Part shown: in pieces, positions 22,400 to 27,339 of the stretch
Position numbering within the stretch: the first letter of the stretch is position 1
Layout of the letters: the number at the start of each line of letters is the position of its first letter
Notes under the pieces: generated by a model
The model's input: the letters and a program-made list of their open reading frames with translations, nothing else
What the model was told of the DNA's origin: nothing
Databases searched by the model: none
Assembly: GCA_026397965.1 (NCBI GenBank)
Contig: JAPLTU010000068.1
Span: 1 to 35,485, forward strand
DNA from: Verrucomicrobiota bacterium
GTDB taxonomy: Bacteria; Verrucomicrobiota; Verrucomicrobiia; Opitutales; UBA953
Direction of reading: 5' to 3'
Length of the DNA: 35,485 nucleotides
Position numbers and translations under genes: made by a program

Positions 22400-22412
22400 G
22401 CTTCGGCTCGAT

Positions 22413-22456
22413 TTAAACAAAGCAGGGCGGGAGCAATCCCGCCCTGCTTTGTTTAA
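22413..22456. terminator. Bidirectional terminator, perfect 20-bp stem
   Basis: Stem 22413-22432 pairs perfectly with 22437-22456 around the GNRA-type loop GCAA. A/T-rich outer ends give A-runs and T-runs on both sides. It serves both the DUF1080 gene (+) and the lipoprotein gene (-), which converge here. Confidence 0.9.
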
Positions 22457-22475
22457 GGGAAAAATGAAGCGGGCG

Positions 22476-23210
22476 TTATTTCTTTTCTGGCTGTTCCGCT
22501 ACTTTCTCGATCTCGCCCGTCTGTTCGTTGATCTTGAAGCGAGCAATCGCCCCGTGAATTTTCTGCTGTTGCTCGAGTCGGTTGCGGGCTTCGTCCGAAA
22601 GTTTTTCGACCTGTTTTTCACGCCACGCCTTATGGGCCTGTTCGTCCGAGATCCATTCGCTGAGACGAAAAGGCAAGGGGATACGCGGCTTGCTGCTCAC
22701 ATTGCCGCCGGCGCCGTTGATCGCCACTCCTTGGGCTGAGGCAGCGGTCGAAGGGGTTTTGATCTCGGATAACTTGATGATTGTTGAGTTGAACTTTTTC
22801 GAATCGTCCACCGTCACGGCCGTTTTGACTGCCACCGTGGTTTCAGGCTTAGGCTTGGTCTCCGTATTGGTTGGGGCGACGGGCTTGGGCTTGGTCTCCT
22901 CTTTGCTTGCCTCGCGGCTGCTGGGCTTTGCCTTGGGTTCATTCCAGGCCTCGGCGTTGGTATCCTTGGCGTCGGGGGGCGGGCTCTTGGCTGCCACGGC
23001 TTTGGGTTGAGGCTTGGCCTCTTCTCCGCCGAAGATCTTCCAGGAGGGCAAACTGAGCCAATCGGGTTTATACCAATGAGATTCTTTGACCGCTGTTGGG
23101 CTGGCATTGCTTGCGTCCGCCCCTTTGTCGGCGGAACCTGCGGCGCAGCCGGTGAGCAATCCCGCGCCGGCGGCGATGAGCCCGAGATTGAGGTGCGTGC
23201 GCAGGCTCAT
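22476..23210 (-). CDS. Lipoprotein with Pro/Lys-rich linker, unknown function
   Basis: The 244-residue product has a type II signal with lipobox LLTGC (Cys22). A low-complexity Lys/Pro/Glu/Thr linker follows (about 60-130). The C-terminal part (150-244, PRIPLPFRLSEWISDEQAHKAWREKQVEKL...) is charged and helical with a possible short coiled coil. The composition suggests a spacer-linked anchor in the periplasm. It starts five bases after the 863-residue membrane protein and is surely in the same operon, so a joint function is likely. I do not recognise the family. Confidence 0.7.
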   Translation of the reverse strand: MSLRTHLNLGLIAAGAGLLTGCAAGSADKGADASNASPTAVKESHWYKPDWLSLPSWKIFGGEEAKPQPKAVAAKSPPPDAKDTNAEAWNEPKAKPSSREASKEETKPKPVAPTNTETKPKPETTVAVKTAVTVDDSKKFNSTIIKLSEIKTPSTAASAQGVAINGAGGNVSSKPRIPLPFRLSEWISDEQAHKAWREKQVEKLSDEARNRLEQQQKIHGAIARFKINEQTGEIEKVAEQPEKK

Positions 23211-23214
23211 GGGC

Positions 23215-25806
23215 TTATTGCGAAAGGATTTGCAGGGCGGCCATGATTGGCGGTCCGGCCTTGGCGTCGAAGCGCGTATTAATTGTGAACTTCGCATCGC
23301 GTGGGGTGCTGCTGGATTTCTCCACCAGGACCTGCTGGGCACCGACGGCTTTTTCGTCGCTCAAGGCTCCGCGCATACGTTCGACCATCGATTCGTAGTC
23401 AAGCGTGTCGACGCAACGATTGATCATCTTCCAGCCCAAGTCCGGTGACTTCGGATTAATGCCAGAAGAGACGAGCTGCAGGGGGTCGCGGCTGGCCCCT
23501 TCGCGGAAGCGGTCGAATTGATAGACGTAGCGGCCGTTCAGCACCAAGCTGTCATTGCCGTTTGTGCGGACGGTCATCAGCAACTCGAAATCCAGCGCGG
23601 TCTGCATCTGTTCGTAGCGAACGCGGGTGACGTCGCTCATCGGCAGGCGACGAAAGAACCGATTGGAGTCGAGCCAGAAGGTCAAGGCGCCTGGGCTGCT
23701 TTTGGCATAAGAGGGGAGTTTATCGCGCAACTCTCCCGACTTAACATTTTTGGAGTCAAAGCGGGTGAGGCATTCGCGGATTTCTTGTTCCACGCAAGGC
23801 GTCGCGCTGTTACCTTCGAACTCAACTAAGATGATGGCGGTCCGGTTCGTCAGACCAAAGGTAAAAAACCCGCCTTCTGGGTCCATGTAACGGCCCTCCC
23901 CATATTTCACCATCGAACGGCTGCGGGTCAGTCTAGAGGCACCGCGGCCGGTTTCGCTGCGGATGGCTTCGTTCATCTGATCGGCGATACGCGAGAGCGC
24001 GACTTCGGCGACGACGGGATCGGTGACACGGATAATCGCACCGCAAATCATGACCGGGTTTTGGTGGGTGCCTTGGCCTAGCTTGTTGGTCGGAAATTTC
24101 GCGAAGCCATAAATTTCAGAATGGGGGTCGAGGCCGTTCTTCAACAGCTCGGCGATCGCCACCGTCATCCCTTTGCCGCCCGTGCGTTCGAGCCATTCCG
24201 GGAAAGCTTGGCTTCCTTTTTGGCGAAGTTCGTCGGGGCGAAAAGTCACGACGGCGAAACTGTCGCCCGGAATCAGGCTCGAGGTGCCGGCGTTGGAACG
24301 AGCGGATTGATTGGAGCGTTCCGTGGCCCAGAGCCAGGCGGCGAGGAGCGCGATGATGCTGGTCAGGACCACGACCACGGTGATTTCCCATGCGCTCCAG
24401 GCAGTGCGAGCCGCTTGGCCGGCGGCACCTTGGCTTTCGCGGGCTTCGCTGGTGCGGCGCTTGCGGCGGACTTGGACGGCCATGTTAAACGCGATGATCA
24501 GCGTCACGGCGAGCGGGTCAAACACGGCGACCAGCGCCAGCATGAGCCACTTGACAACATCGTCGGCTTCGGCGTCGAAGGCGCGGGCGACGAAGCGGTA
24601 TGAGCCGATGTCGGAAGCTGCAATCGTATCGCGCAGCTGGCGGATCTCGTCGTTGCGCGTGCGGATATTCTTATAAAGACCTTCGATCTCAGCATCGGTC
24701 ATGGTCGCCTTGCCTTGGGAATTTTCCTGCAGGGCTGCGAGTTGCTTTTCCAAGTCGGCGATGCCGTCCGAGCCGCTCTTGCGCAGGCTCTTTTCTTCAT
24801 TATCGATGCGGGTGAGTTCGATGTTGAAGAACTCGCGGAGCTGGGAAACTTCCTTGGTGGTCGCTTCGTTATTCTTCGATTGTTCGCCGCGAAGGCGCTC
24901 GATGCGGGCGTTAGCCTCGCTGCGCATCTTTTCGATGCGGTTGCTGGTTTCGGTGAGCTTGGCGAGAATCTGGTCGCGCTCGGGCTTCTGCTGTTCGCGG
25001 AGTTCCTGGCCGAGACGGATGTTATCTTTTTCGAAGAACAAGAGCTGATTCGTTACGCCTTGCTTGGTGTAACCTTCGACGGCTTGGTCGAGATTTTTGA
25101 TGCGGTCGTTAAGGCCGGCGAGGGTCGATTCTTCCGCTCCCACGGCCTTGGCACTGGCGGCTTCTTCCGCAGCGATGCTCTTGGTGATGACGCCCACTTG
25201 CTCCGCGGTGCGTTGCATCGGCGCGGCTAATTCCTGCGTCCGACGTTCGCTCAGGGCCTTGCGTTGCTCTTGGAGGCGGGCAAGCGATTGGTTGAGCGAT
25301 TCGGTCGCCTGCGTCAGGCGGGCCTGGGCCTTGGCGATATCTTCCCGGCCGGAGTTATTGATGCGGGAGTTTTTGCCGCGCGATTCTTCAATCTGGTGCT
25401 GCACCTCGGAGATTTGTTTGTCGAGGTCGGCGATTGCCGCTTCATTGCGCGCGTTATTGATGACGGTTTTCTCGTAGGCGCGGGCCAGGTAACCGTAATT
25501 ACCCAAGGAGGTGATGGCGATTAGGACCAGGACGGCGAGGGTAAGGTAAAAGCGCAGCGCACCATTGATTAATTCCCAATAACGATAGAGGAAAGAGGCG
25601 GCTACGAGTTTGCCGATCTCGAGGCTCGCAGCCATAATCATGACCTGCACATCGGATCCGATGAAGAGTAGGCCCAATCCCCGAACCGAGAAGAATGCCG
25701 AACATCCTGCGATGTATAAAGCCGAGGTGATTAAGATGAAGCGGAAGCCCCAACTTAAGCTTTTAGGCTCATCGCCGGAGGGGTCATCATGGGTAGGGGG
25801 GCTCAT
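23215..25806 (-). CDS. Membrane/coiled-coil protein, phage-like N-terminal half fused to an exported domain
   Basis: The 863-residue product has three N-terminal hydrophobic segments (22-50, 54-73, 86-106). The second contains MAASLEIGKLVAASFLYRYWE and the third ends in ITSLGNYGYLARAY. A long coiled-coil region (about 115-395) follows, then membrane segments at about 420-446 (containing FDPLAVTLIIAFNMA) and 474-494. A C-terminal domain of 370 residues (from about 512, PGDSFAVVTFRPDEL) probably lies outside the cytoplasm. The order LEIGKLV, ITS(L/M)G, coiled coil, FDPLAV...AAN-type motif matches, from memory, a hypothetical protein common in marine T4-like and pelagiphage genomes. The C-terminal domain is not part of that phage protein as I know it. 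No catalytic motif is visible. It is followed by a lipoprotein gene. Confidence 0.75.
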   Translation of the reverse strand: MSPPTHDDPSGDEPKSLSWGFRFILITSALYIAGCSAFFSVRGLGLLFIGSDVQVMIMAASLEIGKLVAASFLYRYWELINGALRFYLTLAVLVLIAITSLGNYGYLARAYEKTVINNARNEAAIADLDKQISEVQHQIEESRGKNSRINNSGREDIAKAQARLTQATESLNQSLARLQEQRKALSERRTQELAAPMQRTAEQVGVITKSIAAEEAASAKAVGAEESTLAGLNDRIKNLDQAVEGYTKQGVTNQLLFFEKDNIRLGQELREQQKPERDQILAKLTETSNRIEKMRSEANARIERLRGEQSKNNEATTKEVSQLREFFNIELTRIDNEEKSLRKSGSDGIADLEKQLAALQENSQGKATMTDAEIEGLYKNIRTRNDEIRQLRDTIAASDIGSYRFVARAFDAEADDVVKWLMLALVAVFDPLAVTLIIAFNMAVQVRRKRRTSEARESQGAAGQAARTAWSAWEITVVVVLTSIIALLAAWLWATERSNQSARSNAGTSSLIPGDSFAVVTFRPDELRQKGSQAFPEWLERTGGKGMTVAIAELLKNGLDPHSEIYGFAKFPTNKLGQGTHQNPVMICGAIIRVTDPVVAEVALSRIADQMNEAIRSETGRGASRLTRSRSMVKYGEGRYMDPEGGFFTFGLTNRTAIILVEFEGNSATPCVEQEIRECLTRFDSKNVKSGELRDKLPSYAKSSPGALTFWLDSNRFFRRLPMSDVTRVRYEQMQTALDFELLMTVRTNGNDSLVLNGRYVYQFDRFREGASRDPLQLVSSGINPKSPDLGWKMINRCVDTLDYESMVERMRGALSDEKAVGAQQVLVEKSSSTPRDAKFTINTRFDAKAGPPIMAALQILSQ

Positions 25807-26007
25807 TGGGGGTAGTGCGTGTATTTTTTAACTCGGACTTAGGGGAGGTGTCAAAAGGTCATTAAGGCACCGCTAACATATGTTCGAAAAAATATGAACT
25901 TTAAGATATATGATTATTAACCATCGTATCAAAGCCGCCTCATTTAGGTCTTATATTTGCAACCTGTTGGAAGTCCGTCTGTCTAAAACTCAAGCACCCC
26001 TATCCTC
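25807..26007. promoter_or_regulatory. AT-rich divergent promoter region
   Basis: This 201-base gap separates the start codons of the 863-residue membrane protein (-) and the DUF1501 operon (+). The stretch 25875-25925 is the most AT-rich in the window and contains two ATATG-TTC/AAC half sites around GAAAAA, plus TATATGATTATTAA. Promoters for both directions probably lie here; no hexamer pair is clear enough to name. The 80 bases before the DUF1501 ATG show no strong ribosome binding site. Confidence 0.45.
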
Positions 26008-27339
26008 ATGAAACTCCACAAGCATTGCCAGGGCAACCACCCCGACTCCCTATCGGGCTTAAGTCGGCGCGATTTTCTTCAGGTGGGCATGATTGGAACG
26101 ATGGGTTTCAGCCTCTCCCATATGTTGCGTTTGCAGGCGTCCGAAATGCCTAAGGTCGAAGCTTATGCAGCGATGGCGGACTCCGTCATCCACATCTATC
26201 TGCCGGGCGGCATGGCGCAGCACGAGTCGTGGGATCCGAAGCCTTTCGCCTCTCCCGATTACCGCGGGCCTTACACGCCGATCAAGACTTCCATCCCCGG
26301 CGAATACGTGGGTGAGAAGTTCGTCAACATTGCGAAGATCATGAACAAACTTACGGTCATCCGATCGATGACGCACGGCGAAGCGGCTCACGAGCGCGGC
26401 ACGCACAACATGTTCACGGGTTATCGCCCCAGTCCCGCCATTAAGTTCCCGAGCTACGGTTCGATCATCTCGCACGAGCAGGGCAGCCGCAATAACCTGC
26501 CGCCTTATGTCGTCGTGCCTAGCCAGACAATTCCTGATCAGGGCACGGGTTACATGAGCAGCGCCTTCGGTCCGTTCGCGCTCGGTAGCGATCCCGCTGA
26601 CAAGGCTTTTGCCGTGCGGGATCTCCAAGGTCCGAAAGATGTTACGTCGCAGCGTTTCGACCGTCGTCGCAGTATGTTGGCAGCCGTCGACGAACATTTC
26701 CGTTCCACCGAAAAGTCTGATGCCATCGGTGCGATGGATAGCTTCCAGCAAGCCGCTTATGGCTTGGTCAGCAGTGCCAAGGCCCGCGAGGCCTTCGATC
26801 TCTCCAAGGAATCCGACAAGCTGCGCGATGAATACGGCCGTAACACCGCCGGTCAGCGCTTCCTCCTCGCCCGTCGCCTCGTCGAGGCTGGCGTCCGCAT
26901 GGTCTCCGTCACCTTCGGCGGCTGGGATCACCACTCGAACATCAAGAGCGCCTTCGACGGTCAGGCCCCGAATTTCGACCAAGCTTTCGCCCGCCTCATC
27001 ACCGATCTCCAGGACCGCGGCATGCTCAAGCGCACGCTCGTGCTCGTGAGTTCCGAGTTCGGCCGCACGCCGAAAATCAACGGCACGAACGGCCGCGACC
27101 ACTGGCCGCGCGTCTTCTCCATCGCCATGGCCGGCGGCGGCACCAAGGAAGGTTACATCCATGGCGCCTCCGACGCCCTCGGTGGCGAGCCCGACCGCGA
27201 CGCCGTTGGCCCGGCCGACCTCGCCAAGACCATGTATCACCTCCTCGGTATCAACTCCGAGAAGCGCATTATGTCCGACGGCGGCCGTCCGATCGACATC
27301 GTCAACGGTGGTCGCATCATGACCGACTGGTTGGCCTGA
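26008..27339 (+). CDS. DUF1501 protein, Tat-exported (second copy)
   Basis: The 443-residue product carries a twin-arginine signal, SRRDFLQ (residues 19-25), with a short hydrophobic stretch. It keeps the DUF1501 landmarks: SVIHIYLPGGMAQHESWDPK, IRSMTHGEAAHERGTHNMFTGYRP, SVTFGGWDHHSN, and SSEFGRTPKINGTNGRDHWPRVFSIAMAGGGTKEG. His and Asp residues in these segments correspond to metal sites in the alkaline-phosphatase fold, but enzyme activity is unproved. It differs clearly from the copy at 8666-10135, so the two belong to separate lineages. It is the first gene of the four-gene operon that runs out of the window. Confidence 0.9.
   Translation: MKLHKHCQGNHPDSLSGLSRRDFLQVGMIGTMGFSLSHMLRLQASEMPKVEAYAAMADSVIHIYLPGGMAQHESWDPKPFASPDYRGPYTPIKTSIPGEYVGEKFVNIAKIMNKLTVIRSMTHGEAAHERGTHNMFTGYRPSPAIKFPSYGSIISHEQGSRNNLPPYVVVPSQTIPDQGTGYMSSAFGPFALGSDPADKAFAVRDLQGPKDVTSQRFDRRRSMLAAVDEHFRSTEKSDAIGAMDSFQQAAYGLVSSAKAREAFDLSKESDKLRDEYGRNTAGQRFLLARRLVEAGVRMVSVTFGGWDHHSNIKSAFDGQAPNFDQAFARLITDLQDRGMLKRTLVLVSSEFGRTPKINGTNGRDHWPRVFSIAMAGGGTKEGYIHGASDALGGEPDRDAVGPADLAKTMYHLLGINSEKRIMSDGGRPIDIVNGGRIMTDWLA

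Follow-up and report, generated by a model that had tools for sequence, protein, structure and literature searches.

A phage-related membrane coiled-coil protein with an exported domain and a partner lipoprotein in Verrucomicrobiota

The window considered here, 35,485 nucleotides from a freshwater Verrucomicrobiota bacterium (GenBank assembly GCA_026397965.1, contig JAPLTU010000068.1), contains a gene for a protein of 863 aa and, beginning 5 bp downstream of it, a gene for a lipoprotein (Table 1). The genes around this pair are chromosomal (photolyase, M42 peptidase, LeuA, DUF1549/1553, LptF/G, RuvA, and DapA), in agreement with the initial annotation, which had assigned the locus to a cellular chromosome; further genes in the window encode DUF1501, 3-keto-disaccharide hydrolase, and planctomycete-type cytochrome proteins. 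The reading frame and the motifs reported earlier were also found in place, with LEIGKLVAASFL at residues 62-73, ITSLGNYGYL at residues 98-107, and FDPLAVTLIIAFN at residues 429-441. The gene was present in 28 of 55 genomes of the same genus, mostly at full length, with 53-98% identity and no internal stops, and is, thus, a genuine gene; as about half of the genus lacks it, it is not essential there. Among the 95 relatives examined, four genomes outside the genus carried it as well.

Table 1. Features of the 863-aa gene and its surroundings (positions in the window; residues refer to the 863-aa protein).
Feature	Positions	Strand	Basis or remarks
Whole gene, 863 aa	23215..25806	(-)	Start ATG at 25806, stop included; full-length orthologues
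TM1-TM3 core, residues 19-107, motifs SxxG..LF, LExxKL, ITSxGxxGxL	25486..25752	(-)	AlphaFold2 model, invariant columns, phage/cell conservation
Coiled-coil hairpin, residues 103-398	24613..25500	(-)	AlphaFold2 model; predicted periplasmic by inside-positive charge pattern
Hairpin tip, residues 232-279	24970..25113	(-)	Most conserved stretch of the coil
TM4 with VFDPLAV motif, residues 416-445, D430 mid-membrane	24472..24561	(-)	AlphaFold2 model, conservation
TM5, residues 470-497	24316..24399	(-)	AlphaFold2 model; cell/phage comparison
Exported C-terminal domain, residues 504-863, DUF4836-like, TP0453-like predicted fold	23218..24297	(-)	Sequence and structure matches
Partner lipoprotein, 244 aa, lipobox LLTGC, Ala at +2, P/A/S/K-rich linker, short C-terminal helix RLSEWISDEQAHKAWREKQ	22476..23210	(-)	
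Imperfect inverted repeat, 44 bp, terminator-like	22413..22456	(.)	Self-match; the lipoprotein and 3-keto-disaccharide hydrolase genes converge on it

The AlphaFold2 model of the protein (mean pLDDT 76) starts with three helices (residues 19-46, 52-75, and 82-100), followed by a coil that consists of one long helix (103-249), a turn at about 250-259, and two further helices (260-363 and 371-398). After the coil, TM4 and TM5 lie within residues 416-458 and 470-503, respectively, before the chain ends in an alpha/beta domain. Counts of lysine plus arginine (1.75-1.84 for the loop between TM2 and TM3, 2.8-3.5 after TM4, and 0.3-0.5 for the loop between TM1 and TM2) indicate that the TM2-TM3 loop and the segment following TM4 are cytoplasmic and that the hairpin is, therefore, periplasmic. 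In the model, its arms comprise about 147 and 139 residues, or ∼21 nm each if computed at 0.15 nm per residue, which is roughly the width of a periplasm; the version found in cells is, thus, predicted to have sufficient length to bridge the distance between inner and outer membrane. Mean information at the hairpin tip (residues 232-279) was 2.45 versus 1.68 bits (Mann-Whitney p 2e-7). The HlyD/EmrA adaptors, too, have a coiled-coil hairpin in the periplasm whose tip is conserved; however, the match to EmrA was weak and centred on the coil (E 0.0012), and no transporter gene neighbours the pair in the window.

When 50,697 phage records were searched with residues 1-470 (tblastn), 13 matched, with E values from 5e-11 to 3e-27, and all of these belonged to genomes of 141-735 kb: Xanthomonas phage XacN1, Stenotrophomonas phages RAS14 and CM1, Pelagibacter phage Mosig, Flavobacterium immuto phages, Microcystis phage Mel-JY01, Salicola phage SCTP-2, and huge uncultured phages, the latter with three records. 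The regions matching the hypothetical proteins of these phages were residues 15-150 and 390-457, that is, the TM1-TM3 and the TM4 block; in the case of LR756508, residues 15-149 matched at 44% identity (E 2e-30) and residues 394-447 at 41% (E 6e-10). Because two separated blocks match, the homology is not an artefact of the coiled coil. The phage kinship that had been proposed for residues 1-450 was, thus, confirmed, also by a scan of IMG/VR, which yielded at least 579 confirmed loci on viral contigs. The accompanying claim that the protein is widespread in marine T4-like and pelagic phages needed amendment: it is common in uncultured viral contigs alone, being rare among sequenced isolates, and is not confined to marine phages. 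The carriers of the core family are large phages, marine as well as non-marine, whose hosts are diderm (Xanthomonas, Stenotrophomonas, Flavobacterium, Microcystis, Pelagibacter, and Salicola); a phage-plasmid of Pseudoalteromonas has it as well.

The window protein shares the hallmarks of this family, a TM1-TM3 block with LExxK and TSxGxxGxL and, after the coiled coil, a TM4 with FDPLAV. The large-phage hypothetical proteins XacN1 ORF242, RAS14 WAX21716, Mosig_00157, immuto gp185, and SCTP-2 gp195 likewise consist of TM1-TM3, a coiled coil, and TM4, and S40, G43, F48, E63, K66, T99, S100, D430, and P431 are invariant between them and the window protein. When 15 copies from phages and cells were aligned, 16 columns proved invariant, including those of E63 and K66 in the middle of TM2 and D430 in TM4. 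These three intramembrane residues were also nearly invariant in a larger set (97 sequences from phages and 68 from cells), each being retained in at least 90% of them, and the LExxK, TSxGxxGxL, and VFDPLA motifs were more than 90% conserved in the same set. The phage copies differ from the window protein in having a shorter coil and a cytoplasmic tail after TM4, without TM5 or an exported domain. The median length of the hairpin region was 293 residues in cells versus 124 in phages, and TM5 was present in 64/64 complete cell copies versus 0/90 complete phage copies. Thus, as the initial annotation had proposed, the cellular version carries a C-terminal addition: by prediction, TM5 and the exported domain (residues 504-863) follow TM4 in cell copies only.

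No family in Pfam, NCBIfam, PADLOC, or PHROGs spans the core, irrespective of whether the whole protein or its halves were searched; only chance hits to the coil were obtained. Matches to TrlF, SMC, and AlgP in NCBIfam, all far below the cut-offs, were rejected as reflecting coil composition, and SMC/Rad50 coils dominated the matches when the full-length model was compared with the PDB by Foldseek. Literature searches for the core family, its motif, and DUF4836 returned no paper. Common as it is among uncultured large phages, the core family has no entry in Pfam, NCBIfam, or PHROGs, and no function is recorded for it. The cell copies provide a handle on it, being a stable chromosomal gene with a fixed partner and clear relatives in which the site is empty.

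The partner was found at nearly all cell loci, where a lipoprotein gene lies downstream on the same strand, mostly within about 14 bp. A strict lipobox rule was passed at 53 of the 67 testable loci, and a lipobox was visible by eye at most of the others, which bears out the suspicion that the neighbouring lipoprotein is conserved. The body of these lipoproteins is rich in proline, alanine, and serine and poorly conserved, and the C terminus is a short Trp/Leu helix; in marine lipoproteins (L100, L104, L108, and L123), a C-terminal helical motif resembling Y..v..WL.R occurs several times. In E. coli, a lipoprotein without Asp at position +2 goes to the outer membrane. As the residue following the lipobox cysteine was never Asp, the partner is predicted to reside in the outer membrane, provided that this rule, which may not be that of Verrucomicrobiota, applies. 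In three genomes of the same genus (G010, G033, and G042; L219, L220, and L221), both genes were missing, although the flanks were kept in the same order (56-91% identity), and a gene for a calcineurin-like phosphoesterase of about 305 aa filled the site equivalent to 22400-26008 of the window. The pair was, therefore, gained or lost as a unit.

The exported domain, when modelled alone, reached a pTM of 0.84, and its best structural match was TP0453 of Treponema pallidum (3k8j; VIA-align Z 12.2, 228/250 residues aligned), with the next fold at Z 6.5. Foldseek returned nothing significant for the domain, and comparison of its sequence with that of TP0453 gave no match, identity being as low as 6-8% despite the similar predicted fold. 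TP0453 is a lipoprotein of the inner leaflet of the outer membrane and has been proposed to be a lipid carrier (PMC5421087, PMC7521688). It is, however, a free lipoprotein, whereas the domain described here is tethered to the inner membrane by the hairpin protein. By sequence, 5 of 49 members of the exported-domain family matched DUF4836 (PF16120) at E ≤ 0.01 (best E 1.1e-6), and one orthologue (L110) scored 28.3 bits, compared with a gathering cut-off of 27; the domain of the window protein itself did not hit DUF4836. What distinguishes the proteins described here from DUF4836 is the fusion to a phage-type core. When relatives were searched for free-standing versions of the domain, only one weak extra match came up. 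Although sharing a fold is no proof of lipid binding, the model suggests that the exported domain may handle or sense a lipid or another component of the envelope. In a marine relative (L209, 2303-4741, minus strand), an exported protein contains many ankyrin repeats in addition to a DUF4836 domain.

A scan with one genome per species revealed ∼70 loci in Verrucomicrobiota-type genomes and a handful elsewhere; the former number includes a few genomes that are labelled otherwise, their labels being taken as provisional names of bins. Within a sample of 388 genomes drawn from the phylum Verrucomicrobiota, only five contained the gene. Seven apparently cellular hits outside Verrucomicrobiota (L116-L122) have many or most of their neighbours in common with viral contigs, and a 128-kb Pseudoalteromonas plasmid carries genes for a head protease and a major head protein; these are, therefore, phages or a phage-plasmid. 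Two further loci (L124 and L126) had no neighbours in common with viral loci and were left unclassified. Cell copies are, thus, essentially restricted to Verrucomicrobiota-type genomes. In a tree of 146 columns, these copies were compatible with a single clade (p-AU 0.595), which under midpoint rooting fell among phage sequences, nearest to the phages L148 and L127; the tree is unrooted, has many unresolved forks, and samples the phages by their best 80 matches. As the cell copies are essentially confined to Verrucomicrobiota-type genomes and compatible with one clade among phages, capture from a large phage appears likelier than transfer in the reverse direction, and a single capture is the simplest reading, although the root is not proven. 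Of the two origins considered by the initial annotation, a domesticated phage protein is, accordingly, favoured over a cellular source, with the tree being unrooted.

With moderate confidence, we regard the 863-aa protein as a captured phage inner-membrane protein that was rebuilt into a connector between inner and outer membrane and works together with the lipoprotein. The core (TM1-TM3, periplasmic coiled-coil hairpin, and TM4) would have entered Verrucomicrobiota from a large phage, most likely once; the hairpin region would have been lengthened after capture, from a median of 124 to one of 293 residues (arms of about 140 residues), and a fifth TM and the DUF4836/TP0453-like exported domain would have been added at the C terminus. 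The co-encoded lipoprotein, predicted to be directed to the outer membrane, would contribute a linker that is long and disordered and, at its C terminus, a short amphipathic helix. The two proteins would most likely form the connector, in which the conserved tip of the hairpin may meet the lipoprotein or else the wall or the outer membrane; the exported domain may handle or sense its lipid or other envelope component. The analysis itself establishes homology, predicted domain order, topology from the charge pattern, conservation of the partner, and the presence or absence of both genes as a unit; beyond these, we infer that the protein touches the lipoprotein and extends as far as the outer membrane, that lipids are handled, and which way the gene was transferred. 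Because phage hairpins are often too short for the periplasm, spanning it cannot have been the original function of the core. If the reading is true, a phage membrane protein became a component of the cell envelope, and it becomes possible to test what a widespread phage gene does. A bolder version, which we put forward tentatively and consider rather doubtful, is that Verrucomicrobiota captured a phage machine that carries a Glu-Lys-Asp triad within the membrane and rebuilt it as a new trans-envelope apparatus, comprising the long hairpin, a lipid-handling domain, and an outer-membrane lipoprotein, and unrelated to Tol-Pal, TonB, spanins, or adaptors.

Classical exclusion factors include small inner-membrane phage proteins, and the phage core could similarly block the entry of rival phage genomes from within the host inner membrane; Verrucomicrobiota would then have retained an anti-phage gene, extended by a domain and a lipoprotein. 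Superinfection exclusion would agree with the accessory status of the gene in the genus and its exchange for another gene at one locus, and also with the phage neighbourhood, which is largely non-structural and made up of DNA-metabolism and proteostasis genes: of the named families among the 142 proteins that adjoin 56 diverse phage copies, Hsp20, Clp proteases, PD-(D/E)XK nuclease, clamp loader, and RecA/UvsX were the most frequent, with a few loci each. However, the best E values against the PADLOC-DB profiles were 0.055 (lipoprotein) and 0.11 (coil), both at chance level, the window contains no defence-island neighbours, no toxin or nuclease domain is recognizable, and within the genus the gene keeps a stable position in one chromosomal block. 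We, thus, consider exclusion unlikely; of the roles initially suggested, one in the envelope fits best, and defence received no direct support. Ranking next, and also improbable, is an energy-coupled device in which E63, K66, and D430 would use the proton gradient to move the hairpin, as in TolQRA or ExbBD-TonB. The retention of these mid-membrane charges in phages and cells alike would suit such a device, as would a rod that extends away from the membrane to a conserved tip; however, a Pfam search of the window yielded no match to MotA, TolQ, or ExbB at E ≤ 1, and the charges may merely form an internal salt bridge.

Least probable is a spanin-like, lysis-linked function, in which the phage protein would help to break open or bridge the envelope during lysis as the inner-membrane coiled-coil partner of a lipoprotein, like Rz/Rz1: an inner-membrane coiled coil next to a lipoprotein gene recalls the i-spanin/o-spanin architecture, and there are weak PHROG matches to Rz-like spanins, but these are centred on the coil, with no homology outside it, and the window protein is multi-pass (four TMs in the core instead of one), anchored at both ends of its hairpin, and much larger. 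Further points in its favour, limited to some phage lineages, are peptidoglycan hydrolase genes (a glucosaminidase in Mosig and a cell-wall hydrolase in L120) and lipoprotein genes next to the homologue. Against it, the neighbours at the 56 phage loci are led by the Hsp20, Clp, clamp-loader, and nuclease genes and mostly unrelated to lysis, lipobox genes occupied positions −1/+1 in just 4 of 165 neighbours, and no lysis cassette with endolysin or holin surrounds the window copy, which lies among chromosomal genes. A lipoprotein partner in phages generally was rejected, as it is confined to one pelagic sublineage.

In this pelagic sublineage (L121, L139, L147, L153, and L187), the lipoprotein genes, one of them LPP20-like, lie just upstream of the homologue, and in some members a gene for a SleB-type cell-wall hydrolase is also located there. 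The homologue on the 128-kb Pseudoalteromonas plasmid (NZ_CP072685.1, L207, 10860-12065) is annotated as a chloride channel protein, without support from Pfam. In a 735-kb phage (L008, 4971-6494), the cytoplasmic tail of the homologue weakly matches the PcrA/UvrD tudor domain (E 8e-4).
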